From NCBI GenBank assembly GCA_021323895.1, contig JAJPKD010000271.1:1-32703 (forward strand): a DNA stretch of 32,703 nucleotides. Reading direction: 5' to 3'. Origin of the DNA: Acidobacteriota bacterium (GTDB taxonomy: Bacteria; Acidobacteriota; Blastocatellia; Pyrinomonadales; Pyrinomonadaceae). Under the pieces are notes generated by a model. The model searched no databases. It was given only the letters and a program-made list of their open reading frames with translations, and was not told the origin of the DNA. Positions 5,313 through 23,369 of the stretch are shown piece after piece. Within the stretch, counting starts at the first letter, position 1. The number at the start of each line of letters is the position of its first letter. A program made the translations under genes and the position numbers.

Positions 5313-6203
5313 TCACAAATGTACTTCGTTCGTCGCGCACATTTGATTTTCGAGTTGCACCGTAATGTGATTAATCTTGAACTTCGAAAAGACCAGTGTG
5401 CGCACTGCCTGCAAAACTTGGTCGTGCTGCTTATCGTCGACCAAAACCGCATGTGTGCTCATCGCATTGATCCCGGACGTCAGCGTCCAGACATGCAAGT
5501 CGTGAACGTCTACCACTCCCGGTAGTTGGCGGATCGATTCGCGCAACGCCGTCAGATTCACATCCGAAGGCGTACCCTCCAGCAAGACACCCAGGGCCTC
5601 TCTAAGCAGCAGCCAGGTTCGTGGCAAAATGAAGAGTCCAATGCCTGCCGAGATCAACGGGTCGGCGTAGTACCAGCCCGTTGTGAGCATGATGACGCTG
5701 GCGAAGATCACACCAATCGAAGTCAACATGTCCGAAAGCACCTCGAAGTAGGCACCCTCCATGTTCAGACTCTCGCGCGAACCGGTGCGCAGAATGTACA
5801 TGCCGATGATATTGACGACGAGACCGACGACAGCCACACCCAACATCAAACCGCTTTCCACTTCGGGCGGTTTCATGAATCGCCGATATGCTTCGTAAAG
5901 GATGTAGAGCGAGATGCCGATCAGGACGATGGCATTCGTAAGCGCAGCCAGAATTTCGACGCGGTAGTAGCCGTAGGTCCTTTCGGGTGAGGCCGGACGT
6001 TCCGCAAACCAGATCGCCATCAGCGCCAAACCGACGCCACCAACGTCGGTTAGCATATGACCGGCATCAGCGAGCAGCGCCAGGCTGCCGGTGATTAGAC
6101 CGCCGATCACTTCCACTACCAGATAGGTGATCGTCAATCCGAAGACGAGGGCCAGACGGCGTTTGTTACGACCGGCTGCACTCTGTGTGTGTGCGTGTCC
6201 CAT
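5313..6203 (-). CDS. czcD: CDF family Zn/Co/Cd efflux protein, CzcD-like
   Basis: The product is 296 aa, full length for the CzcD subfamily. It starts MGHAHTQSAAGRNKRR and has six membrane helices. The metal-site motifs are LLADAGHMLTDVG (TM2) and EVLSDMLTSIG (TM5). The cytoplasmic domain has VVDVHDLHVWTLTSG and ends INHITVQLENQ. It exports divalent cations from the cytoplasm using the proton gradient. A TGA stop lies in frame 9 nt upstream of the ATG, fixing the start at 6203. It lies downstream of the rhodanese and P-type ATPase genes, consistent with a shared efflux operon. The family is certain; the exact metal is not. Confidence 0.9.
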   Translation of the reverse strand: MGHAHTQSAAGRNKRRLALVFGLTITYLVVEVIGGLITGSLALLADAGHMLTDVGGVGLALMAIWFAERPASPERTYGYYRVEILAALTNAIVLIGISLYILYEAYRRFMKPPEVESGLMLGVAVVGLVVNIIGMYILRTGSRESLNMEGAYFEVLSDMLTSIGVIFASVIMLTTGWYYADPLISAGIGLFILPRTWLLLREALGVLLEGTPSDVNLTALRESIRQLPGVVDVHDLHVWTLTSGINAMSTHAVLVDDKQHDQVLQAVRTLVFSKFKINHITVQLENQMCATNEVHL

Positions 6204-6407: not shown

Positions 6408-6872
6408 CTATCGCTCAATCGGCAGGGCAGCCGCTTCCCAGGCTCGATAGCCACCCAGCAGCGCCGCTGCATTCGTGACTCCTTGCCGTTTCAACTGAAG
6501 TACCGCACGGGCACTTGTCTCTTCGGCCGGTCAAGAACAGTAGGTAATGATTTTCTTTCCCTTCGGCAGTGAAGATCCGCGCACCGCAATCTCGGCTTCG
6601 GGCAGCGAAAGTGCTCTGGCTATGTGGCCTGCCTGGAACGCGCTGGCTTGGCGCACGTCAACGAATACGGCCTCGCCTTTTTCGACCGCCGCCCTTGCTT
6701 CTGGAATAGATACGCGCTCGACTGTCCTTTGCGCCGCATGGTCATCCTCGCCAATGGGCGCAGTTGGCGGCGTTTGTGTCCGCGATACATTGCTGGGACT
6801 GCTGGTGTTCTGTGAGATGCAGCCACTTAAGAGGACTAAAGCCGCCATCACCATCAACACTAAGACTCGCAT
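6408..6872 (-). CDS. Rhodanese-like lipoprotein with in-frame TGA (candidate selenoprotein, CxU)
   Basis: The full reading is 154 aa if TGA at 6531-6533 is selenocysteine; ordinary calling stops at 113 aa. A lipoprotein signal (MRVLVLMVMAALVLLSGC) is followed by a rhodanese domain with VFVDVRQASAFQAGHIARAL. The active-site loop reads ITYCS-U-PAEETSARAVL, and the frame continues through LQLKRQGVTNAAALLGGYRA to a TAG at 6408. Everything after the TGA is a normal rhodanese C-terminus, so the frame is conserved. The related YCxCPxE loop has Cys where TGA stands, three residues into the loop after the catalytic Cys112. A stem-loop lies 15-33 nt downstream. Rhodaneses move sulfane sulfur; here the site is extracytoplasmic. 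A good SD (AAGGAG) precedes the ATG. The alternative is a nonsense mutation. Confidence 0.7.
6498..6516 (-). promoter_or_regulatory. Candidate bacterial SECIS hairpin in the rhodanese gene
   Basis: Reading the mRNA (minus) strand, the sequence AAGTGCC-CGTGC-GGTACTT forms a 7-bp stem (one G-U) with a 5-nt loop. The loop starts 21 nt after the TGA at 6531-6533 and has G at position 2 followed by T. This fits the general bSECIS rule of a small loop 16-37 nt after TGA with an early G. It is the least E. coli-like of the four hairpins. Confidence 0.5.
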
Positions 6873-6912: not shown

Positions 6913-9000
6913 TCAACGGCTAGTCTCGTAAGACCCTTCGCGACCAGTCGACGGTCGCTCGATTGGACGAACAGGCTTGGCAGAAGGCTTGGATGTCTGA
7001 GCCTGAACCGAATTCGTGAATGCCAACATTAGACCACTTACTAAAAGAATTCCGGCGGCCAACGCGACGCTCGCTTTGGTATCTCTTATGGCGCCTGCCG
7101 GCTCGAATTTCAGAAGCCGCAAGCTGTTTACGATGACGATAACGGTTACTCCCACGTCGGCAAAGATCGCCAGCGCCAGACTGCTCCAGCCACCCACAGC
7201 CAGGCCGATGAAAACAAGCTTTGTCAGAATCGCGATCGCGGTATTGATCTTGATGGTTGAGATGGTCTTGCGCCCCAGTCGCACAAGATAAGGCACCAGG
7301 CCGAGCCGGTCATTGAGGAGCGCGATCGAAGCGGACTCAATCGCGGTATCGCTTCCCGCCGCGCCCATGGCAATGCCAACGGAGGCGAGCGCCAACGCAG
7401 GCGCGTCGTTAACTCCGTCGCCAACCATAGCCACCGTTGAATATCTTTGGGTGAGATCGCGGATAGCTTCAGCCTTGTCCTCAGGTAACATCTCCGCGCG
7501 GACTTCGCGAATCCCAACAGCCCGGGCAACTTCCTCGGCGGACGCTTGGCTGTCGCCCGTCAACATCACTGTCTCGATCTTCAGACGACTAAGCTCGCTG
7601 ATTACTTCTTTGCTTTCTGTTTTGAGTTCGTCAGTGAGCGCGACGATTCCTTCGACGCCGTCATTGTTGCTGACGATGATCGAAGTCTTTCCTTCGCCCT
7701 GCAGTGCCTCGACTCTCGCGACGACTTCGGTTTGGACGTCGTGCTCTTCAGTTATGAAGGGAAGCTTCCCAATGCAGTGATGCGCGTCGTAACACACAAT
7801 GCAATCTGCTTTCGCGCCTTTACCGAGAATCGCTTGAAAGTTCTTGGCGGCGTGCAGATCGAGTTTTTCGCCGCGAGCCGCGGCGACGATTGCTTGCGCT
7901 AAGGGATGCTCCGAATAACTTTCGATTCCGGCGGCGCAAGCTAGCAGATGCTCACGCGTTGCTCCGCCGATTGGCAACACGTCGGTGACTTTGAGCTTGC
8001 CGTGCGTCAAAGTGCGGGTCTTATCCAAAGCCACGGCGGCCACTCGTCCGATAGCTTCGACATATTTTCCGCCCTTGATGAGCGCGCCGCGTGCCGAGGC
8101 GTTACCGATGGCCGCGTAGATCGATATCGGCGTGGAAATCACCAGCGCGCACGGGCAGGCGATCACCAATAGGGTCAGCGCCTCACGAAACCAGGTGTCA
8201 AAAGGTCGGCCAAAGAAGAGCACAGGAATCGCCACCAGGTGCAAAGCCAAAAACAATACCGTCGGCGTGTAATATGAAGAGAAGTTTTCGATGAACTTCT
8301 GCGTTTCAGCTTTGGACTTCGTCGCGGCAAAAGTGATGTCAATGATCTTGGCCAGGGTGGAGTCCTGAGCCTCTTTGGTGACGCGGGCTTCCAGATAGCC
8401 CTGCATGTTAAGCGTACCGGCAAAGAGCATGTCTCCCTCATGCTTGTCTTTAGGGAGCGGCTCACCCGTGATGGTTGATTCGTCAACCGAAGACGATCCA
8501 AAGACACCTTCGGAATCCATGGCGATCATTTCCGCAGGCTTAATGACGAGCGCATCGCCTACTCGGATTTGGGTGAGCGGGACTTCCTGCGTTTCATCGG
8601 CTGCGTTCTTAATCGTCGCGACCTTTGGGGTACGATCGACCAGCGCTTGTAACGCCGACTTGCTGGCCGCGATACCGTACTCTTCCAATCTTTCCGCCAG
8701 GGTGAATAAGACGATTACAACCGCCGCCTCTGGGTACTGGCGCGTGTAGAAAGCGCCAATCACGGCTACGATCATCAGCAGATTGATACTGCGGAAGTTC
8801 AACCGCGCGAGCGCGACGAGTCCATGCCAGATAGTTCGGTAGCCAATCGCCAAAATGATCACCGTGAAGAAGGGGACGGCGACCCTGGGTGTCATCTCCC
8901 AGCCCGCCAGCGAAAGAACTTCGAAGACGCTGACGACCGCGATGCTGAATATCAGCCATCTGAACTTCGTATCTCCGAATAGCGTCACTTTCTGGTTCAT
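6913..9000 (-). CDS. Zn/Cd-type P1B ATPase with an altered DKTGT motif
   Basis: The product is 695 aa without an N-terminal HMA domain. It has the P1B core: TGEP actuator loop, ACPCALV with the transport-site Cys282 and Cys284, the SEHPLA motif of the nucleotide domain, MLTGDS and GDGVNDAPAL. It would pump Zn2+, Cd2+ or Pb2+ out of the cytoplasm using ATP. The phosphorylation motif reads DKTRTLT at 326-332, with Arg329 in place of the nearly invariant Gly; Asp326 itself is kept. A one-base GGC to CGC change would explain it. The C-terminus has an extra membrane helix and a Pro/Arg-rich tail. It lies 40 nt upstream of the rhodanese gene. No clear Shine-Dalgarno precedes the ATG. Confidence 0.88.
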   Translation of the reverse strand: MNQKVTLFGDTKFRWLIFSIAVVSVFEVLSLAGWEMTPRVAVPFFTVIILAIGYRTIWHGLVALARLNFRSINLLMIVAVIGAFYTRQYPEAAVVIVLFTLAERLEEYGIAASKSALQALVDRTPKVATIKNAADETQEVPLTQIRVGDALVIKPAEMIAMDSEGVFGSSSVDESTITGEPLPKDKHEGDMLFAGTLNMQGYLEARVTKEAQDSTLAKIIDITFAATKSKAETQKFIENFSSYYTPTVLFLALHLVAIPVLFFGRPFDTWFREALTLLVIACPCALVISTPISIYAAIGNASARGALIKGGKYVEAIGRVAAVALDKTRTLTHGKLKVTDVLPIGGATREHLLACAAGIESYSEHPLAQAIVAAARGEKLDLHAAKNFQAILGKGAKADCIVCYDAHHCIGKLPFITEEHDVQTEVVARVEALQGEGKTSIIVSNNDGVEGIVALTDELKTESKEVISELSRLKIETVMLTGDSQASAEEVARAVGIREVRAEMLPEDKAEAIRDLTQRYSTVAMVGDGVNDAPALALASVGIAMGAAGSDTAIESASIALLNDRLGLVPYLVRLGRKTISTIKINTAIAILTKLVFIGLAVGGWSSLALAIFADVGVTVIVIVNSLRLLKFEPAGAIRDTKASVALAAGILLVSGLMLAFTNSVQAQTSKPSAKPVRPIERPSTGREGSYETSR

Positions 9001-9018: not shown

Positions 9019-9732
9019 CTATTTGAACTGTCTGAGGATTACGATCTCAGCCCGCTGGCGCACCTCGTCCAAAAAGCCCGCCATCGAAGCTTCGATCTTC
9101 TCTTCCGTCAGAGTCTTTTCTATTTCCGCGCGGGCCTGTTCCAGCCGCGGCACAATGGCACCGGGCGCACGCGCCCGAAAGTGTCGCAAGTAGGTTTCGT
9201 TATAATAATTTTCAATCTCTTTCGGGGTGACAACAACAAAAGAGCGAAAGCGAAAGTCCAGGTACTTGTCGATATCGACTCGTTCGTGGACGATTTCTCG
9301 CAGGCGCTCGGAATTAAGCCCGACGCGGATCATTCGTTGCCTGAACTCATCCTGCGAAGAAAAATGGCGCACTAATTCGCTTAGCTCTGCCTCTACCTCT
9401 TTGTCGTCCCCATGAAGGTGGGGAAGTTTGTCGGCTTCTTGCAGGATCAGCCGCTGATCTATAAGGAGGGATAGCGCGCGTTTTAGATCGTCCACCTTAA
9501 TCGGCTCGATTGGCGTGTTAGGTTGTAAAGCCATCTGCCAAACCACGTCCGAATAGGTGATCAGCTGCTCGTTCACCGTAGCGACCATATAGTCAACGAC
9601 CACTGTGTTGCTTTCGCGCGAAGCGGCTTGGCCTGCACTACTGGGCGCCGCTAGCAGGCTGAAACAAACGCTAAGCACACCGACGATGAACGTACGAATA
9701 GAAAAGGCTTTATCGATCAATCCAGTATTCAC
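9019..9732 (-). CDS. SurA N-domain-like exported protein lacking a PPIase domain
   Basis: The product is 237 aa. A signal peptide (hydrophobic FIVGVLSVCFSLLAA, cleavage near SSA-GQ) is followed by a SurA_N-like chaperone domain: VVVDYMVATVNEQLITYSDV, LLIDQRLILQEADKLP, then helices including RLREIVHERVDIDKYLDFRF. The C-terminal helix (ARAEIEKTLTEEKIEASMAG) completes that fold. No parvulin domain is present, and the length is about half that of SurA. It probably assists outer-membrane or periplasmic subunits. Its place between the PII-like gene and the P-type ATPase suggests it serves the efflux machinery, which is inference. The start is GTG at 9732, 6 nt after the PII-like stop. Confidence 0.8.
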   Translation of the reverse strand: MNTGLIDKAFSIRTFIVGVLSVCFSLLAAPSSAGQAASRESNTVVVDYMVATVNEQLITYSDVVWQMALQPNTPIEPIKVDDLKRALSLLIDQRLILQEADKLPHLHGDDKEVEAELSELVRHFSSQDEFRQRMIRVGLNSERLREIVHERVDIDKYLDFRFRSFVVVTPKEIENYYNETYLRHFRARAPGAIVPRLEQARAEIEKTLTEEKIEASMAGFLDEVRQRAEIVILRQFK

Positions 9733-9738
9733 GCTCGG

Positions 9739-10074
9739 TTACAGCGCCTCCTCCTGCGTTTCTCCGGTTTGAATGCGAACTGCCTCCTCGATGGCGGAAA
9801 CAAAAACCTTCCCGTCGCCGTGATTGCCGGTGTGGGCCGTCGCGGCGATGGTGCGCACGATTGCTTCCACCATTTCATCAGCAGTAACAATTTCCAGGCG
9901 CACTTTTTCATGAAATTCGTTCAGGTGCATGCTGTGCTCTTCGTGCGCGCTTTGGCGTCTTCCGAACCCACGCACGTCACTCAAGGTCATCCCCGGAAAC
10001 CCGTCGATTGTTTCCAGCGCGCTGACAACCTTGTTCACCATGAAAGGCTGCACCATCGCGATAATGATCTTCAT
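9739..10074 (-). CDS. PII-like signalling protein linked to metal efflux
   Basis: The product is 111 aa, full PII length. It begins MKIIIAMVQPFMVNKVVSAL and keeps the C-terminal signature TGNHGDGKVFV. The T-loop lacks the usual uridylylation Tyr context and is instead His/Glu-rich (SAHEEHSMHLNEFHEKV). This resembles the PII-NG group, whose genes adjoin heavy-metal RND pumps. It may bind metal or a nucleotide and modulate the pump; that is inference. An AAGGAG precedes the ATG. The start lies 12 nt after the stop of the CzcA gene. Confidence 0.85.
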   Translation of the reverse strand: MKIIIAMVQPFMVNKVVSALETIDGFPGMTLSDVRGFGRRQSAHEEHSMHLNEFHEKVRLEIVTADEMVEAIVRTIAATAHTGNHGDGKVFVSAIEEAVRIQTGETQEEAL

Positions 10075-10086
10075 TGAATTAGCTCC

Positions 10087-13000
10087 TTAATATTCGACCC
10101 GCTCTCGCTCAAACCAGCGATAAAGCATGGGCAGCACGAGCAGCTTCAGGACGGTTGAAACAAGTAAACCGCCAATCACCACCGTCGCCAATGGACGTTG
10201 CACTTCCGCGCCGGCTGACGTTGCGATGGCCATGGGCACAAATCCGAGACTTGCGACCAGCGCGGTCATAAGGATCGGACGCAGCCGGGCGTCGGCTCCT
10301 TCTCTAACAGCTTCATCCAGCGATTTCCCTTCGTCGCGCAGCTTGTTGACGTAGCTGACCATGACGATACCGTCGAGCACCGCGACGCCGAATAAGGCAA
10401 TGAAGCCGACACCCGCGGAAATGGAAAACGGTAAGCCGCGCACAAATAAGGCGAAGACGCCACCAACTATTGCCATGGGAATGCTTGTGTAGATCAGTAT
10501 CGCCTGCTTGATTGAATTAAATGTCGTGAACAGCAGCATAAAGATGAGGAAGAGCGCCAGCGGCACCACGATCATGAGTCGCGCCGTGGCGCGCTGCAGG
10601 TTCTCGAATTGGCCACCCCAGGTCAGGTAATAACCGGAAGGAGTCTGCACTTGCTTATCGATCGCTTTCTTTGCTTCTTCCACGAAGCTCTTGGTGTCCC
10701 GGCCGCGCACGTTGAGTTCCACTCCGATACGGCGGCGGGTATCCTCTCGTGAAATTTGTGCAGGGCCTTCAACGATCTTTATGTCCGCGAGTTGCGACAG
10801 GGGCACGCGGGCGCCGCTCGGGGCCGGAACCAGCAAGTTCTTAATCGTCTCGACGTCTTTGCTGGTTGCCTCGGCTAGTCGAACCACCAGGTTGAATCTC
10901 TGCTCTCCCTCGTAAACCAGGCCCGCTGATTTGCCCGCCACGATTGATTCAACCACATCGTTGACATCCGAGACATTAATGCCGTAACGCGCGATCGCCG
11001 CGCGGTCCGGTTTGATCTGAAGTTGCGGTAAGCCCGTCACCTGTTCGACCTTGACGTCTTCCGCGCCTCGAACCCTTGAAACTACACCAGCGATCTGATC
11101 GGCAGTCTTCTTAAGTTGATCAAGATCATCTCCAAACAACTTGATCGCCACATCTGAACGCACCCCGGAGATAAGTTCCGAGACGCGCAGTTCAATAGGC
11201 TGCGAGAAACTGAAGTTTGCTTCCGGCATCCCGTTCTCCAACGCCTGCGACATCTTTTCGACCAGTTCTTCGCGGGTACGCGCGCTCGTCCATTGCTCAT
11301 GGGGCTTCAACTCGACGTACACGTCGCTCAGATCGACGCCCATCGGATCAGTCGCTACTTCCGCGCGCCCGGTCTTAGAGATGACCTTCGTGACTTCGGG
11401 AAACTTTCTGAGTATTGCTTCTACGGCTGTCGCTGTTTCTATCGAGCGACTGAGAGATACGCTTGGCAGCCGTTGAATCTGAATTGCCAGCGAGCCTTCT
11501 TCCAGGCGGGGAATAAACTCCGCACCCAGGAACGGGAACAGCGCAAAGCTGACGAGCACAAGCGCCGTAGTCGCCGCGAGCGTTTTGGTGCGATGGGTGA
11601 GAACAAATTCCAACGCCGGCTTGTACCAGCGCTTCGAGTAACGAATAAAAATGCTCTCCGTTTCGGCGACTTTTCCCTTCAGAATGAAAGTCATCGCTGC
11701 CGGGACGTAGGTAAGCGAAAGAATCAAGGCACCGATGAGCGCGAACACGACGGTTAAGGCCATCGGCTTGAACATCTTGCCTTCAATGCCACTGAGGCTG
11801 AGGATCGGCAGATAAACGATGGTGATGATTGCCACGGCAAATACGACGGGACGGCCAACTTCCAAACAGGCTTCGAGGATGGTGCGTTCGGGCGGTTCGT
11901 GTGAACCGGCGTGTTGAGCTTCCGCCCGTCGGCGCACGGCGTTTTCCACCACGATCACCGCGCCGTCAACGATCAAGCCGAAGTCCAGTGAACCGAGGCT
12001 CATCAGGTTGCCGGACACATTGAAGATGCGCATCAGAATTGCCGCGAACAGCATCGAGAGCGGAATGACGGTGGCCACCAGTAAGGCACCGCGCCAATTC
12101 CCTAGCAGGATGATGAGCACGATTATTACCAGCACCGCGCCTTCGATGAGATTTTTGGCGACGGTGTGAATAGTGCGATTCACAAGTTCGGTGCGGTCAT
12201 AGAAAGGAACCAACTGCACGCCCTTAGGTAGAGTCTTGCGCACCGCTTCGACTCGTTCTTTTACTCGGTCGACGACTGCGCGAGAGTTCTCGCCTTTGAG
12301 CATCATGGCGATGCCCGCCACAATCTCACCTTTGCCATCGGCCGTTACCGCACCTTGCCGGACGGTCGCTCCAGTCACCACTTCGCCGAGATCGCGGACG
12401 AAGATCGGCACACCTTCCTTGCCTGCCTTAACGATGATGTTGGCGATGTCGTCGGCTTTCTCGGCGAGACCGATGCCTCTCAGCAGATACTGCTCGGGGC
12501 CATGTTCGATATAAGCGCCGCCGACATTCGCGTTGTTGCGCCCAACCGCTTCGAGGACATCTCGAAGCGTCAGACCGAACGATTGCAGCTTGGCGGGATC
12601 GAGGCGCACCTGGTATTGCTTTTCCAGTCCGCCAAAACTGTTAACTTCGACCACGCCGGGAACACCCAGCAACTGTCGCCGCACGCTCCAATCCTGAATC
12701 GTACGCAGGGCCGTCGCGTCATAACCGCTTCCAGCAGCGCCAACGAGCTGGTACTGGTAGATCTCGCCGAGGCCGGTAGAGATCGGTCCCATCTCCGGCG
12801 CGCCGATGTTTTCAGGAATCTGATCGCGCGCTTCACCGAGACGTTCCAGCACCAGTTGGCGCGCGAAATAAATGTCCGTCGAATCATCGAAGACAACGGT
12901 AACCGCCGAAAGACCAAAGCGAGAGATTGAACGAATCTCGGTTAGTCCCGGCAATCCCGACATCGCCACTTCCACTGGAAACGTAATCTGCCGCTCAATC

Positions 13001-13179
13001 TCGAGTGGTGCGAGACTCGGAGCAGCAGTCAATACCTGAACTTGAACGTTGGTAACGTCGGGTACGGCATCGATTGGAAGTTGTTGCAGACTGTAGAGTC
13101 CCGCGCCAATCAGAATCGCGACCATCAAAAGGATCAAAACCCGCTGCGAGACAGCAAACCCAATGATTCCATCAATCAC
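10087..13179 (-). CDS. czcA: Heavy-metal efflux RND inner-membrane transporter, CzcA-like
   Basis: The product is 1030 aa, normal HME-RND length. The N-terminus (RVLILLMVAILIGAGLYSLQ) is a membrane helix, and 12 helices with two large periplasmic loops follow. The TM4 motif DFGLIVDGAVIVVEN carries the Asp-Asp-Glu proton-relay set typical of the CzcA (Zn/Co/Cd) type; CusA-type (Cu/Ag) pumps lack the first Asp. The family drives metal out of the periplasm or cytoplasm through a tripartite complex using proton influx. The start is GTG at 13179. It forms an operon with the MFP and OMF genes upstream (gaps of 35 and 18 nt). The identification is firm; the substrate is inferred. Confidence 0.93.
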   Translation of the reverse strand: MIDGIIGFAVSQRVLILLMVAILIGAGLYSLQQLPIDAVPDVTNVQVQVLTAAPSLAPLEIERQITFPVEVAMSGLPGLTEIRSISRFGLSAVTVVFDDSTDIYFARQLVLERLGEARDQIPENIGAPEMGPISTGLGEIYQYQLVGAAGSGYDATALRTIQDWSVRRQLLGVPGVVEVNSFGGLEKQYQVRLDPAKLQSFGLTLRDVLEAVGRNNANVGGAYIEHGPEQYLLRGIGLAEKADDIANIIVKAGKEGVPIFVRDLGEVVTGATVRQGAVTADGKGEIVAGIAMMLKGENSRAVVDRVKERVEAVRKTLPKGVQLVPFYDRTELVNRTIHTVAKNLIEGAVLVIIVLIILLGNWRGALLVATVIPLSMLFAAILMRIFNVSGNLMSLGSLDFGLIVDGAVIVVENAVRRRAEAQHAGSHEPPERTILEACLEVGRPVVFAVAIITIVYLPILSLSGIEGKMFKPMALTVVFALIGALILSLTYVPAAMTFILKGKVAETESIFIRYSKRWYKPALEFVLTHRTKTLAATTALVLVSFALFPFLGAEFIPRLEEGSLAIQIQRLPSVSLSRSIETATAVEAILRKFPEVTKVISKTGRAEVATDPMGVDLSDVYVELKPHEQWTSARTREELVEKMSQALENGMPEANFSFSQPIELRVSELISGVRSDVAIKLFGDDLDQLKKTADQIAGVVSRVRGAEDVKVEQVTGLPQLQIKPDRAAIARYGINVSDVNDVVESIVAGKSAGLVYEGEQRFNLVVRLAEATSKDVETIKNLLVPAPSGARVPLSQLADIKIVEGPAQISREDTRRRIGVELNVRGRDTKSFVEEAKKAIDKQVQTPSGYYLTWGGQFENLQRATARLMIVVPLALFLIFMLLFTTFNSIKQAILIYTSIPMAIVGGVFALFVRGLPFSISAGVGFIALFGVAVLDGIVMVSYVNKLRDEGKSLDEAVREGADARLRPILMTALVASLGFVPMAIATSAGAEVQRPLATVVIGGLLVSTVLKLLVLPMLYRWFERERVEY

Positions 13180-13214
13180 GTTAGAGGTATCCCTTCACTG
13201 AGCTAGACAAAACG

Positions 13215-14687
13215 TTAGTCGCCCTCACCCAAACTGCCCTTCATCAATTGCGTCTTCAGTGCGAAGCTGCCTTTGGTAACTACTTTGTCACCCAGCTTCA
13301 GGCCGCTGATCACCCGGTGGTAGTTGTCCTGCTCGCCGCCAAGCTCGACATTGCGGGCCTCAAACACACCCGGCTCGTTTTCCTTCGGAACGAATACGAC
13401 GCTGCGATCGCCGATGCGTTGCACTGCTTCCGACGGAACCACTAGGTCCTCACCAGCGCCGCTGCCGCTTGCGGTCTCGAATCCCACCTCAACGAACATC
13501 CCCGCTTTGAGCCGTTCGCCGGGGTTGCTTAGCTCGACCCGCACGCGCGCGGTTCGAGTTTCTTCGCTTAGGCGAGGGTCGATGTAGTTAACCCGTCCGG
13601 CAATACCGTTTGGCCCCAGGGCTGCCGAACGGATTTCTGCCGGCGTGCCGTTGTGAATGCTTCCCACCTGAGATTCGGGCACGTTCGCAATCACCCAAAC
13701 GGTGGAGAGGTTCCCGATAGTGAAGAGCGTCTTTCCAGCCTCGACACCCGCGCCCGCGTTGACGTTTCGTTCCATGACCGTACCTGACACGGGTGAACGC
13801 ACCGGAATAAATGAAATGTTCTCTTTGTGGTAATCCTTCGCCGCTTCGTTCACGGTCACACCGAGCGCGGATAAACTCGTTCGTAAATGCTCGACTTCGG
13901 TGCTGCTGGTTTCCACCTCAGTCTGTGCTTCCTGCACTTCGCGATTGAGAGAGATGTTGCTTTGAAACTCGTATTCAGCCTTCGCCGTCGTATAAGCCGT
14001 CTCGGCCGTTACCAGATCTTTGCCAGCGCCGACGCCCAACTCGATTAGTCGGCGAGTGCGCTTCAAAGTGGCTTCGGCTTCATCCAATTTAGCTTTTGCC
14101 GAGAGCACGCCGGCGCGATTCTCAGCCCGCTGCACCCGTTGCAGATTCCGGCGTGCTGCTTGCTCGCGGGTCATTGCTTCGCGCAGTTTGCCGTGCATCT
14201 CCGCCACCTCGGGACTGGCGATTATTGCGAGCACCGAACCGGCGCCGACCCGGTCGCCAAGTGATACATTGACGCGCTCGATGCGGCCAGAGACCAATGG
14301 CGTGACCTGCTGGGTCTGCTGCTGGTTGGCTTCAACTGTTCCTGTCACTTTCAAAAGCGAGACCGCGGGGCGTTGGGTTATCCCCTGAATCTCGATCCCA
14401 GCCGCCGAAACCGCCTCTGGAGAAAGTTTCACCTCGCTGGGAGCAGCGCTTTCGCCCTTGGTTTCGACTGTAGCTCCTTCCTTCTTCGGCTCGGCCCGCC
14501 CCCGGCGCATGTAAAGCACCGCGACGACGGCGACTATGGCTACGAGCGCCACCACCGCGACGATGACGATCGTTTGCCGAGATGAGAAACGCGAGCGACT
14601 TACCGTCGTAAACTTTGGGCCCGCCGCTTCACCGTCGGTGGAGTCGCTGTCACTATCAATATGTTCCTGGGTTAATTGATCACTCAT
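13215..14687 (-). CDS. czcB: Membrane fusion protein of the efflux pump, CzcB-like
   Basis: The product is 490 aa. The cytoplasmic N-terminus is unusually long and acidic, followed by one membrane helix (IVIVAVVALVAIVAVVAVLY). Lipoyl-like half-motifs flank a long helical hairpin at about residues 160-270, with many Ala/Glu/Arg heptads. A beta-barrel domain includes VRSPVSGTVMERNVNAGAGV and the C-terminal domain reads DRSVVFVPKENEPGVF. MFPs bridge the RND pump and the outer-membrane channel. A GAGGA precedes the ATG. No His-rich metal-binding N-terminus or CusB-type Met cluster is seen, in line with a Zn/Co/Cd rather than Cu pump. Confidence 0.9.
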   Translation of the reverse strand: MSDQLTQEHIDSDSDSTDGEAAGPKFTTVSRSRFSSRQTIVIVAVVALVAIVAVVAVLYMRRGRAEPKKEGATVETKGESAAPSEVKLSPEAVSAAGIEIQGITQRPAVSLLKVTGTVEANQQQTQQVTPLVSGRIERVNVSLGDRVGAGSVLAIIASPEVAEMHGKLREAMTREQAARRNLQRVQRAENRAGVLSAKAKLDEAEATLKRTRRLIELGVGAGKDLVTAETAYTTAKAEYEFQSNISLNREVQEAQTEVETSSTEVEHLRTSLSALGVTVNEAAKDYHKENISFIPVRSPVSGTVMERNVNAGAGVEAGKTLFTIGNLSTVWVIANVPESQVGSIHNGTPAEIRSAALGPNGIAGRVNYIDPRLSEETRTARVRVELSNPGERLKAGMFVEVGFETASGSGAGEDLVVPSEAVQRIGDRSVVFVPKENEPGVFEARNVELGGEQDNYHRVISGLKLGDKVVTKGSFALKTQLMKGSLGEGD

Positions 14688-14705
14688 TTGTCTGGTTCCT
14701 CACTC

Positions 14706-16124
14706 TCATTTAATGGGCGTCCCCATGGCTGCTGCTAGATCGGCCAACGCGCGGTACTGTTCACTCAAGGCCTCGGTAAACTCGCGCTGCGAGTCCACGA
14801 GCCGCCGTTGCTCTGTAAGCAAGTCGGTAATTTTGAACTCGCCAATCTGATAGGCTGCGCGGATAGCTCGAATGTTCTCGTTTGACCGGGTGATGACACC
14901 CTGGTCGTAGGTGGCGATTGCGGCGCGCGCGGCTTCATATCGTGCAAAGGCGCTCTGCACTTCTGTGCGCACCACGTGTTCAAGAAATTCGCGTCGCCGT
15001 TTCGCTTGATCGATCGCTAACGCGGCTTCGGTTTTCGTTCCCTGATTTCGATTGAAAACCGGAATGCCCACTGAGACACCAAACGAAAGTAATTTGTCCC
15101 GATCAGTGAGGACTCCAACCGGCGTATCGTCAAAGGCGGACCGACTGACTGTGTATTTACTGAAAGGCGTTATATCGGGGACGCCTTCGGCGCGCGCCAA
15201 GCGCAGTCCCGCCTGAGCAACTTCTTCGGTCAATCGCGCCAGACGAAGGTCCGGGCGGGTGCGCAGGGCAATCTCAACTGCGGACTCTACTGAAGACGGC
15301 GGCGACGGCAGCGGCGGCGCATTCAAATCTTCGTTCAAACGCAGTAACTCATCGACTGGCGTTCCTGTCAGACTCTTAAGCCGCAGAATTGCTGCCTGTA
15401 ATTTCCCTTCGACCAGCGCGCGACGGGAACGCAAGCGGTCCACCTCCACGCGCAAGAGATTCAACTCGAGTGGTGCCGACTCGCCCTCGTTGACGCGCGC
15501 CTGCACAAAGCGGGTCGTCTGCACATCGATCTCGTTAAGGTTTTGGGTGATTTCCAGTTCTCGTAGTGAGGCCAAGGCTTCCGCGTACGTCGCCCGAACG
15601 TCATTTGCCAGCCGACGTTCGCGATCGGCTATCTCAGCTTCGGCAGCCTCGAATTCGGCCTGCGCGAGTTCGCTGCGACGTCGTCGCTTGCCACCCATTT
15701 CCAGCGGTACTGCCACGCCGATACTCGTCTCGACTTCGCCTGCCGAACCCGTGAAGCGTCCAGTTGTCTGCTCAAAGTCAATCGTCGGGTTTGGTCTCAG
15801 CCCCGCTTGCCGCAAACGAGCGCGTGCTCGTTCAATGTCGAGCCGCGCGGCCGTTAACTCACCATTGGTCGTCAGTGCCCGGCGTACCAGGTCGATGGAT
15901 GATGTGCCTTGCAGTGGGTCGAAATAGCGACTCACGATCGTGCTCGGGAAACTGTTGGCGAGTGACTTACCCGTATTGAGATCTGCTGCGGGTGTATCGG
16001 CGATCTTAAGTTCGCTAGTCACGACCGGTTGTTGGGATAAAGCCGAACTGCTAAACATCAAGACAGAGAGAATCAGCGCCCAGCCTTGAACAAAGCGAGC
16101 CGACCCTCGGCGGTAAAACGACAT
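14706..16124 (-). CDS. czcC: Outer-membrane efflux channel, CzcC/TolC-like
   Basis: The product is 472 aa from the ATG at 16124. This start follows an AAGGAA by 8 nt; a TTG at 16157 would be the longer alternative. A signal peptide (ARFVQGWALILSVLMFSSSA, then LSQQP) is followed by two repeated OEP domains. These are marked by SIDLVRRALTTNGELTAARL, LRQAGLRPNPTIDFEQTTGR, VESAVEIALRTRPDLRLARL and GVSVGIPVFNRNQGTKTEAA. The family forms a trimeric outer-membrane duct for the RND pump. It is the first gene of the czcCBA set; about 140 nt separate it from the Cys-rich ORF upstream. Confidence 0.92.
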   Translation of the reverse strand: MSFYRRGSARFVQGWALILSVLMFSSSALSQQPVVTSELKIADTPAADLNTGKSLANSFPSTIVSRYFDPLQGTSSIDLVRRALTTNGELTAARLDIERARARLRQAGLRPNPTIDFEQTTGRFTGSAGEVETSIGVAVPLEMGGKRRRRSELAQAEFEAAEAEIADRERRLANDVRATYAEALASLRELEITQNLNEIDVQTTRFVQARVNEGESAPLELNLLRVEVDRLRSRRALVEGKLQAAILRLKSLTGTPVDELLRLNEDLNAPPLPSPPSSVESAVEIALRTRPDLRLARLTEEVAQAGLRLARAEGVPDITPFSKYTVSRSAFDDTPVGVLTDRDKLLSFGVSVGIPVFNRNQGTKTEAALAIDQAKRRREFLEHVVRTEVQSAFARYEAARAAIATYDQGVITRSNENIRAIRAAYQIGEFKITDLLTEQRRLVDSQREFTEALSEQYRALADLAAAMGTPIK

Positions 16125-16268
16125 AGTCACGTTCCTTTTTTCGAACCCTCGCTGCAACGCTGTCGCGAAGAGAGACGGGCTGCATGATTGTTCCTGGGAT
16201 GGGTTAATGGTTGCGAAGCACCATTGAACCCAAAGCGACGCGGAATGGCGTCTACGAAGGCTTAGGAA

Positions 16269-20512: not shown

Positions 20513-21388
20513 TTATGACTTCTGCCGTTTCTTGATCTCCACCAATGCTTCTTCCACCGTGCCGTGCGGTTTGTCTTTGAGTTCCGGGTATCCATTCAAC
20601 CACTCATTTAGAGCTTCTTCAGACCTGAAGAAGTTAATGACGCCTCAACCACCGCCCGCGAAGAAAATCGTCGACGCGGGCTGGGCAGTGATCAACTTGG
20701 CCTTATCAAAGATGAGGTGAATACGTGCGGTACTTTCCGGCGAGGAATCATCTATCGTGACCTTTTCACTTGCGAGTTTGTCGCTGACCAGCGACAGCGA
20801 GTCGAGCGCTCAATTCACATTGAACTGTCGCCCACTGTCGAGACTTATCTTATGAAAGACAAAGTCCAGGCGCGGTTCCCATTTAATGTAGTGCGGCACG
20901 ACACGATAGCTGGCTTTAGCGGCGCTACTGTCTTTCTTCAAGATATCGTATCGTTCAAGCATGTTCAGCCCACGCTTCACGTCTGCTTCACTCACACCGA
21001 CAGCTTTCGCTAACTCAGACGTGCTCGGCGTCGGCTTGGCATCACGTTCAGCATTAATCAGCGCGCGCGCAATCAATTTCTCGTCCGGAGTCAACACCAG
21101 CGTCACCCATCCCCAGCGCCGAACGATCTCATGAAGTTCGGGATGAGACTTGATGTAGTTGCCGATGCGAAAGCGCGTTTCGTCTGACGGCTCAACTTTG
21201 AGCGCGGCCATCGCGATATCGACGCTGGTGACGCTGAAATCCTGACCCCAATCGTTCACCAAATAATCGATGACCTTTTGTTCTTGAGGGTTGAGCTGTC
21301 CTTGATCAATGGCAGCGTTTGCGGCGCTACTAAATAACAGCACGCACGATACCAACAGTAATCCGCGTTTGATCATAAAGGATCGCAT
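20513..21388 (-). CDS. merB: MerB-like organomercurial lyase, exported, with two in-frame TGA (candidate di-selenoprotein)
   Basis: The frame runs 291 aa if TGA at 20810-20812 and 20645-20647 are selenocysteine. A signal peptide (GLLLVSCVLLFSSAANA) precedes an N-terminal winged-helix part (STSELAKAVGVSEADVKRGL). The first TGA falls in FNVN-U-ALDSL, matching the WC-ALDTL site of R831b MerB, where Cys96 and Asp99 are catalytic; the Asp is kept at U193+3. The second TGA falls in AGGG-U-GVINFFRS, matching FC-C-HVHFF, where Cys159 is catalytic. Reading continues through EALNEWLNGYP to TAA. MerB splits C-Hg bonds and releases Hg2+; Sec at both sites would be unusual. Each TGA has a GGTC-loop hairpin downstream. 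Canonical MerB is cytosolic, so an exported form is also unusual. Last gene of the mer operon, 17 nt after the TlpA-like stop. Confidence 0.85.
20614..20633 (-). promoter_or_regulatory. Candidate bSECIS hairpin after the second merB TGA
   Basis: On the mRNA strand CTTCTTCA-GGTC-TGAAGAAG is a perfect 8-bp stem with a GGTC loop. The loop starts 19 nt after the TGA at 20645-20647. The apical part CAGGTCTG is the same as in the E. coli fdhF SECIS, whose G and T contact SelB. Confidence 0.8.
20779..20796 (-). promoter_or_regulatory. Candidate bSECIS hairpin after the first merB TGA
   Basis: On the mRNA strand TGTCGCT-GGTC-AGCGACA is a perfect 7-bp stem with a GGTC loop. The loop starts 20 nt after the TGA at 20810-20812. 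Loop sequence and distance match the second merB hairpin although the stems differ in sequence, as expected for selected structure. Confidence 0.75.
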
Positions 21389-21405: not shown

Positions 21406-21894
21406 TTAAGTTCCTGATTTCGCCTTGAGTAAAGTTTCGATGTCGCGCTCAATGTCAGCGCTCTTATTCGGTGGCGAGCCGGAATATTTCTTGTAGAACT
21501 TCCAACCGGGTGCGATGACGTAGGTTGCCGGAAAGCTGATTACGCCGAAGTCAGAAACCGAATCGTCATTCCCTACCAGAATCGTGTAACGCATCTTGTA
21601 TTGAGTTGCGAATTTCTGGATGTCGCTCGCCCAGCCGGATTGCACTGCCAACCCGATGACTTTGACGCCGCGCGAAGAATATTTTTCTTGCAACTTATTG
21701 AAGGCAGGAATTTCTCCGACACAGTTCTCACACCAGGTCGCCCAGAAATCGAGGACCACAATGTTGTCCTTCAGGTCTTGCGAGCGCAGCGTCTGGCCGT
21801 CGAGTTTCGGCAATGAAAACTCAGGCAGCGGTTTCGGGTCCTGCCCCGCCACGCTACAAAACAGAAAACAAATAAGGACGAATACTCGCATCAT
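21406..21894 (-). CDS. TlpA/ResA-like exported thioredoxin
   Basis: The product is 162 aa. A signal peptide (MRVFVLICFLFCSVAG) leads into a redoxin/AhpC-TSA fold with WATWCENCVGEIPAFNKLQ, so the redox pair is Cys55 and Cys58. The cis-Pro loop is ISFPATYVI. It would reduce or shuffle disulfides in the periplasm. Its ATG overlaps the stop of the CopZ-like gene (ATGA arrangement), so the two are translationally coupled. In this operon it may keep the Cys or Sec residues of the exported MerB-like and thioredoxin-like proteins reduced, which is inference. Both CxxC cysteines are normal codons here, in contrast to its neighbours. Confidence 0.88.
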   Translation of the reverse strand: MMRVFVLICFLFCSVAGQDPKPLPEFSLPKLDGQTLRSQDLKDNIVVLDFWATWCENCVGEIPAFNKLQEKYSSRGVKVIGLAVQSGWASDIQKFATQYKMRYTILVGNDDSVSDFGVISFPATYVIAPGWKFYKKYSGSPPNKSADIERDIETLLKAKSGT

Positions 21895-22388
21895 CTCACT
21901 TTGCCGGATTCATGGATTTGTTCCCTTAGCCGCTTGACCGCTCTATTCACTTCGCCGAGGCAGCACGCGCCCGATGGATTGCGAGTTTCACACGCGCATA
22001 GGCCTTCTCGGATAAGCCTCGAAATTCGTTCTGGAATTGTGGTGTTGCCGGTTCGGAAGATTTCATCTCGGACGTGGCTCTCCTCGAATCCAAAGCAATA
22101 GCACAAAGGAATTGGATCTGTTTTCGCCTTGAGGCCGACAATCGTCCGCAGATCATCCTTAGTGAATACTCGGTTACTATTTTCTTCGAAATAGACGACC
22201 GGACAATCGCGTGCCTGGCAGAAGCAAAACGCTCCCGTCAATGCTTGTTCGAGTAGATGAGGGTTCAACATCAAGAGGACCGTCTTTCGTGAGACAGGCC
22301 GGCCTTCGTCCTTGCAAGTGGCGCAGCTTTCAACCATTGGTTCTAAACTTCGCTCTGCAATCAAAGTGTCCGTTGCACAACAGGTCAT
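21891..22388 (-). CDS. CopZ-like Fe-S-cluster metallochaperone
   Basis: The product is 165 aa with 15 cysteines. The N-terminal part starts MTCCATDTL and has ESCATCKDEGRPVS, then FCFCQARDCPVVYFEENSNR, a Zn-binding domain as in Archaeoglobus CopZ. The C-terminal part reads LCYCFGFEESHVRDEIF, then LIREGLCACETRNPSGACCL, a BFD-like [2Fe-2S] domain with four Cys ligands. The family passes Cu+ or related soft metals to transporters. No HMA domain is present. It sits between the Sec thioredoxin-like gene (29-nt gap) and tlpA. Within a mer operon it probably handles Hg2+ or Cu+ in the cytosol. Confidence 0.8.
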   Translation of the reverse strand: MTCCATDTLIAERSLEPMVESCATCKDEGRPVSRKTVLLMLNPHLLEQALTGAFCFCQARDCPVVYFEENSNRVFTKDDLRTIVGLKAKTDPIPLCYCFGFEESHVRDEIFRTGNTTIPERISRLIREGLCACETRNPSGACCLGEVNRAVKRLREQIHESGKVR

Positions 22389-22417: not shown

Positions 22418-22990
22418 CTATTTCGCACGCTCGCGTAACAACTTCTGGATCGCTTCTCTGGTCCCATCAATTCCGTGGATGACAGGGACATTTGAATAAG
22501 CTGGTTCAGGCGGCGCTTGACTCCACTGCTTTCCCGGCGCATAGACAGCGACATAATCCCAAACCACAGATGAGCTGTCCTTCTCGCCGAGTGCCTGAGA
22601 AACAAGATGCTCCTTATCCCAATATTGCGAAGCTCTCAGATCGGATACTCGCGCCAGCGTTCTAGTCGAGGGCGCGCCTAAATCAGTTGTCAATACCGGT
22701 TCCCAGATCACAAACACCCGGACTCTTGGATCGCGTTGTTCATCAAGCAGCTTTTGGATTGCAGAGGCCCCCTGCAAACATACCGTTCAAGTGGGAGACA
22801 GCATCACTACCAAGCGAACGGAATTCGCAGAGCCGTTGAATGCATCCTTGAGCGATGAAATATTGGAACCAGTCAGACGAACCAGCGGTTGCTGTCCGTT
22901 GGGAACAGTGCTCCCCCAGTAAAAGTAATAGAACGCCACCAAGACGATCGCCGCCAGCCCACCTCCGATAATGATTCCCTTGCGTTTCAT
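22418..22990 (-). CDS. Membrane-anchored thioredoxin-like protein with UxxC (candidate selenoprotein)
   Basis: The ATG at 22990 opens a 190-aa frame interrupted once by TGA at 22787-22789 (codon 68) and ending at a TAG. One N-terminal helix (GIIIGGGLAAIVLVAFYYFY) anchors the protein, with the rest outside. The region reads RLVVMLSPT-U-TVCLQGASA, the place of a CxxC motif after a beta strand, so the site is U68-x-x-C71. The C-terminal half (VRVFVIWEPVL, then VWDYVAVYAPGKQW and NVPVIHG) continues the fold. Normal calling splits it into two ORFs (22787-23071 and 22418-22777). A UUGCAG-stem hairpin follows the TGA. The start lies 13 nt after the MerT-like stop. The role is probably redox or Hg2+ capture outside the membrane, like MerP; I do not recognise an exact family. 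Confidence 0.8.
22759..22777 (-). promoter_or_regulatory. Candidate bSECIS hairpin in the thioredoxin-like gene
   Basis: On the mRNA strand TTGCAG-GGGGCCT-CTGCAA forms a 6-bp stem, extendable by G-T and G-C pairs, with a G-rich loop. The loop starts 15 nt after the TGA at 22787-22789, or 17 nt if the stem is extended. The stem TTGCA is also found around the apical loop of the E. coli fdhF SECIS. Confidence 0.65.
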
Positions 22991-23003
22991 TTCTCTCTCA
23001 CAT

Positions 23004-23369
23004 TCAGCCGGCCAAAAGGTTCGCCAGGAAATTCGCGATGGCTTGCGGAAACAGAATAAACACGAGCACAACGATCGACGAGAACCACAGGAGAAGCGCG
23101 CTCACGAGATTCGGTTTACAGTTGCATTGTTTGGCCCGCCACCGTTGATAAAAGCCAAATCCGATCAGCAGCACGGATGCTGCTAGCAAGAACGGTCGAA
23201 GCTTCACAAAGAATGCGGAAGTCCCGGCCGTACCCGCCGCGAAAAGAAAAGGAAGCAGCGGCAGGCAACAACTCGATGCCAAAACTACGCTACCGAGCGC
23301 ACCTAAACTCGCAAGAATCGTACTTGGGGAGCGCCCGCCTTTGTTGGTAGCAAAACTGTTACTTGTCAT
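23004..23369 (-). CDS. merT: MerT-like mercuric ion transporter
   Basis: The product is 121 aa from the ATG at 23369; a longer frame reaches 23426 but would overlap merR. It has three membrane helices. The first carries the Hg-binding vicinal pair SSCCLPLLPFLFA (Cys34-Cys35). The cytoplasmic loop has AKQCNCKPN (Cys82, Cys84), matching the second MerT Cys pair. MerT passes Hg2+ from the periplasm to cytosolic MerA. No MerA or MerP is in the window, so the sink for Hg2+ is unclear. It is the second gene of the operon. The Shine-Dalgarno is weak. Confidence 0.85.
   Translation of the reverse strand: MTSNSFATNKGGRSPSTILASLGALGSVVLASSCCLPLLPFLFAAGTAGTSAFFVKLRPFLLAASVLLIGFGFYQRWRAKQCNCKPNLVSALLLWFSSIVVLVFILFPQAIANFLANLLAG

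Follow-up and report, generated by a model that had tools for sequence, protein, structure and literature searches.

A rhodanese-domain gene with a probable active-site Cys-Sec pair in a bacterial metal-efflux gene cluster

Introduction

Within the 32,703-nucleotide stretch of DNA analysed here (the window), a short minus-strand gene encodes a rhodanese domain whose reading frame contains a TGA two codons after that of the active-site cysteine. The locus raises the question whether this codon is read as selenocysteine (Sec) or ends the protein and, if it is read, what a Cys-Sec pair would do at such a position. Based on analyses of the gene, its homologues and the source genome, we propose that the TGA, taken by itself, is almost certainly decoded as Sec, and that the product is very probably a rhodanese selenoprotein with an active-site Cys-Sec pair. 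An extracytoplasmic role in sulfur redox chemistry is the function that we favour, with less assurance, from sequence features and gene order.

The gene and its product

The features of the gene are as follows.

6408-6872, minus strand: gene for a rhodanese-domain, putative lipoprotein of 154 residues, with Sec predicted at 114 (PF00581, 5.7e-15)
6819-6872, minus strand: predicted signal peptide with lipobox LSGC (Cys18), read from the sequence
6531-6533, minus strand: in-frame TGA, residue 114, at +2 from active-site Cys112 (codon 6539-6537)
6498-6516, minus strand: candidate bSECIS hairpin AAGTGCC/GGTACTT with loop CGTGC, assigned by the published model and covariation

The open reading frame starts with ATG at 6872 and stops with TAG at 6410-6408. 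A good ribosome-binding site, AAAGGAGAG, lies just 5' of the ATG, in the sequence context AAAGGAGAGAG. The translation reads ...KIITYCS-TGA-PAEETSARAVLQLKRQG... and closes with LLGGYRAWEAAALPIER before the stop. The lipobox occupies residues 15-18 (LLSGC) and the protein is predicted to be an exported lipoprotein; similar lipoboxes were recognized in 18 of 48 homologues with a crude pattern that undercounts them.

The PF00581 rhodanese model covers residues 58-148 and thus spans the TGA, scoring 56 bits against a gathering score of 22.2. In the AlphaFold prediction the rhodanese domain reaches a pLDDT of 95-98, the nearest solved structures all contain rhodanese domains, and Cys112 aligns with the catalytic position of solved relatives. 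The initial annotation, which named no strand, had described a rhodanese lipoprotein with a TGA two residues past the catalytic Cys, in agreement with the reading frame, the Pfam match, the lipobox and the positions of Cys112 and the TGA at 114.

The TGA column in homologues

Of 396 genomes searched in the phylum, 180 gave a rhodanese match, and the TGA site was read in 48 sequences from 40 genomes. Thirty of these are the best matches, taken without selection, while the other 18 were selected as stretches with a one-TGA match or adjoining another match. The site holds TGA in 42 of the 48 sequences, Cys (TGC or TGT) in the remaining 6, and nothing else. The unselected 30 contribute 25 TGA and 5 Cys, and the selected 18 contribute 17 TGA, all in one constant column, and a single Cys copy that sits beside a TGA copy. 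The first, active-site Cys is present in every one of the 48, and the loop, YCSU in the window protein, reads C[STA][UC] in all homologues. The TGA hence recurs across species and aligns with Cys, as the comparison suggested in the initial annotation was meant to reveal. Close homologues truncated at the same place, which had been named there as an argument against Sec, were not seen; TGA or Cys is followed by a conserved C-terminal half. In one genome (G197), the reading frame called with translation table 11 stops at the TGA.

The nearest relative found is 52% identical over 98 columns, and named genomes, when scanned with the window sequence alone as query, yielded six loci, only one of which is close. 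Tandem rhodanese pairs occur as TGA with TGA in G075 and G157, and as TGA with Cys in G042.

The SECIS hairpin

The bSECIS model describes a loop of 3-9 nt with a G in the first two positions, on a stem of 4-16 bp located 16-37 nt after the UGA (PMC13188914). The hairpin proposed earlier for this gene, a 7-bp stem with a CGTGC loop at 21 nt, is found exactly, at 6516-6498; its stem includes one G-U pair, its loop begins 21 nt past the TGA and, with the loop CGUGC in the RNA, it lies within the published limits. An Rfam search of the window gave no match. In single-sequence folding the hairpin is no more stable than shuffled sequence (z 0.17). Synonymous-codon shuffles, whose codon frequencies were pooled over this conserved stretch itself and which are hence conservative, gave a stability z of -0.53 and a p of 0.033 for the hairpin rule in the window, and were significant in some homologues only.

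Covariation was assessed in a gapless alignment of 39 TGA homologues, in which 83.5% of stem cells pair. Double-change cells number 19 against 7.8 expected in shuffles, a value that none of 500 shuffles reaches, although these counts are somewhat inflated by kinship of the sequences. When the register is slid, only 30-50% of cells are paired, each register being worse than the true one. The pair that carries most weight links the third positions of a Ser codon and a Val or Ala codon, as C-G in 23 and as U-A in 9 of the 39 sequences; these changes are silent in the protein, which argues that the constraint acts on the RNA. The hairpin is therefore taken as real because it is conserved and covaries in homologues, not because of its own stability. 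It had been regarded as a weak point of the proposal, and so it is when judged alone against shuffled sequence, but the covariation answers that worry. The Cys forms do not clearly keep the hairpin pattern.

Selenocysteine machinery and Sec/Cys switching

The source genome encodes SelB (375 bits), SelA (530 bits) and SelD (362 bits, itself with an internal in-frame TGA), together with a tRNA-Sec with the anticodon TCA. The absence of SelB, which would have counted against Sec, was thus not encountered. The genome is a bin of 322 contigs, 95% complete with 3% estimated contamination, and the source bacterium, judged by its relatives, appears to belong to the phylum Acidobacteriota. Given these bin figures the window contig could be misbinned, although further genes in the window are also likely to encode TGA selenoproteins.

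SelB exceeds the cut-off in 254 of the 396 sampled genomes and is present at an E-value of 2e-93 or better in 38 of 38 genomes with a TGA form, counts that come from related species and are not independent. In G227 and G189, which belong to the same family, SelB matches are at background level only (~1e-55), and the rhodanese homologues of these two genomes carry TGT at the site. The Cys copy of G227 sits among TGA forms in the rhodanese tree, on which the Sec/Cys label switches at least 4-5 times. Clustering of the labels on this tree is no better than that of shuffled labels, and the window copy has no firm placement in it.

Genomic context

The window gene lies on the same strand as a series of metal-transport genes.

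5313-6203, minus strand: downstream neighbour, CDF family cation efflux transporter (TIGR01297, 283 bits, cut-off 82)
6913-9000, minus strand: upstream neighbour, heavy-metal P-type ATPase of the Zn/Cd/Pb type (TIGR01525, 546 bits, cut-off 346)
10087-16157, minus strand: further upstream, CzcC-like outer membrane, CzcB-like adaptor and CzcA RND heavy-metal efflux genes

The P-type ATPase reading frame ends 40 bp before the rhodanese gene begins, and about 200 bp separate the rhodanese gene from that of the CDF transporter. Between czcA and the ATPase gene, genes for a P-II-like small protein (9739-10074) and a SurA-like protein (9019-9732) are found, both on the minus strand. Since the searches gave no relative above 52% identity, the link to a metal cluster is that of one locus only.

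The relatives have other neighbours. A gene for a Bcp-type peroxiredoxin lies directly upstream on the same strand in 11 examined loci, including that of the G227 Cys form (pairs at L022, L026, L027, L029, L031, L034, L038, L042, L044, L045 and L047). In two relatives, one of them at the locus of the window copy's nearest relative, a 4Fe-4S/NrfD polysulfide-reductase-like gene faces the rhodanese. The source genome has a second TGA rhodanese, 39% identical to the window copy and immediately downstream of selB. Such a paralogue follows selB by ~110-220 bp in the source genome and in G383, and in G025 a TGA rhodanese lies near selB with one gene between. In the source genome, selB and this second rhodanese, a lipoprotein with the TGA in YCT-U-PAEH, share a strand at G000:C180:6690-9171 (L072, L048).

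Several further genes of the window, all on the minus strand, were noted. A MerB-like protein (20513-21388) matches PF03243 at 6e-9 when TGA is read through, and has no NCBIfam match; it has two in-frame TGA codons (NVN-U-ALDSL and GGG-U-GVINFF), without whose readthrough the frame is cut after residue 192. After a MerT-like gene, the frame at 22418-23071 contains a TGA in LSPT-U-TVC, a thioredoxin-like UxxC motif, and its product matches no Pfam or NCBIfam family. A putative iron-sulfur metallochaperone, CopZ_Nterm_CC (21891-22388; NF047645, 127 bits, cut-off 100), belongs to the mercury-type gene group. The CYCXC family (seleno)protein at 1752-2303 (NF041379, 104.8 bits, cut-off 90) is a Cys form (PCYCYC), and the TGA near its C terminus is probably a true stop.

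Discussion

TGA is the normal stop in the standard bacterial code and the hairpin is weak as a single sequence, so that the codon might simply end the protein or have arisen as a disabling mutation, leaving a truncated product or a pseudogene with a remnant frame downstream. Against this stand 42 homologues, in 38 genomes, that share the TGA, with Cys as the sole alternative, the conservation of frame and motifs past the TGA, the covariation at silent sites and the complete Sec machinery of the genome. Both the pseudogene and the plain-stop readings are rejected on the TGA/Cys column, the covariation and the machinery, and we regard them as having almost no chance of being correct.

Two other explanations accept the selenoprotein and differ in its purpose. 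Instead of doing sulfur chemistry, Sec may serve mainly as a periplasmic ligand for a metalloid or a soft metal (Hg, Cd, Cu), on behalf of the efflux systems encoded next to it. The gene is flanked by those of the heavy-metal P-type ATPase and the CDF transporter and lies downstream of the CzcCBA genes; the likely TGA genes of the MerB-like and the thioredoxin-like protein are found at a distance of 14-16 kb, and metal binding has been suggested for some other selenoproteins (PMC13188914). The relatives, however, have genes for peroxiredoxin, polysulfide-reductase-like proteins, enolase or SelB as neighbours and not metal genes, G075 alone among them having a CDF gene, about 4 kb off, and all homologues retain the rhodanese active-site Cys; metal binding as the main role is thus unlikely. 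The paralogue beside selB, a linkage seen in three genomes of the genus, points instead towards selenium handling, with the protein as a perselenide carrier. This we consider very improbable, as SelD and SelA act in the cytoplasm and a predicted lipoprotein would reside outside it, and as genomes in which no SelB was detected still carry Cys forms.

We favour a Cys-Sec sulfur redox protein outside the cytoplasm. Homology, the Sec decoding signals, the conservation of both residues and the gene order are observed, and from them we infer export, chemistry, substrate and partner; in particular, the Cys-x-Sec loop, the predicted lipoprotein signal and the peroxiredoxin- and polysulfide-type neighbours suggest sulfane-sulfur or thiol redox chemistry. 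UGA would be decoded as Sec by SelB, tRNA-Sec and the SECIS hairpin within the coding sequence. A sulfane donor (persulfide, polysulfide or thiosulfate) may then pass sulfur to Cys112, or Cys112 may become oxidised, whereupon Sec114 would attack it with release of sulfide or the thiol; the resulting selenenyl-sulfide bond would presumably be reduced by a thiol partner. A selenenyl-sulfide pair, perhaps for metal or persulfide handling, had also been suggested in the initial annotation. The activity of the window copy may serve the metal-efflux gene cluster.

More speculatively, and with rather more doubt than conviction, the large group of exported Sec rhodaneses in Acidobacteriota may represent an unrecognised extracytoplasmic redox system, linked to persulfides or peroxide and working with a Bcp-type peroxiredoxin or an NrfD-type polysulfide reductase, in which Sec and Cys were exchanged as SelB was lost and from which one copy was recruited into a metal-efflux cluster. 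Standard gene calling ends genes of this kind at the TGA, and as they also score under the curated model, they are probably overlooked in genomes of Acidobacteriota. In addition, the family forms a natural Sec/Cys series, including Cys versions in genomes without detectable SelB, that could be used to ask what Sec adds at +2 of a rhodanese.

Comparison with known systems

GlpE and PspE, single-domain thiosulfate sulfurtransferases, share the fold and the position of the active-site Cys with the window protein, which scores 34 of 102 bits against the GlpE model, far under its cut-off. To our knowledge they have neither Cys nor Sec at +2, unlike the CxU rhodanese family. TsoB (NF045694, rhodanese/DsbD fusion-like) is likewise a rhodanese selenoprotein and weakly matches the rhodanese part, at 19.9 bits against a cut-off of 805; its model, however, has 572 positions, two Sec (UxxxxU) and a DsbD-like part, whereas the window protein consists of one short domain and its gene has one TGA only.

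Rhodanese selenoprotein forms 1, 2 and 4 carry UxxS or UxxG in place of CxU (PMC13188914). The same 2026 review, citing Zhang and Gladyshev 2005, lists CxU rhodaneses as 'rhodanese-like domain-containing protein form 3' (NF041203, example TKB26178.1), and a 2022 review gives them as COG0607 form 2 (PMC9312934); the initial annotation does not mention this listing. Our search of the published literature returned nothing specific on the Acidobacteriota CxU group.

The closest known family is NF041203 (rhodanese_LYCAU, 'rhodanese-related (seleno)protein'), which has Sec or Cys at +2 from the active-site Cys, i.e. the CxU/CxC loop seen here. It is the best NCBIfam match of the window protein and is also matched by all 48 homologues. 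The window protein nevertheless scores 71.9 bits against a cut-off of 115, the selB-side paralogue 91.7 bits, and nine of ten homologues scored singly fall below the cut-off; the tenth, from the same taxonomic family as the window organism (L062), passes with 123 bits. Besides its score, the window protein differs from NF041203 members in its lipoprotein signal and its place in a metal-efflux gene cluster, and on sequence grounds appears to be a diverged relative of that family. Given its score, we class it among the CxU rhodanese selenoproteins but outside the NF041203 equivalog. CxU rhodanese selenoproteins are thus already on record, and the window gene adds a member.
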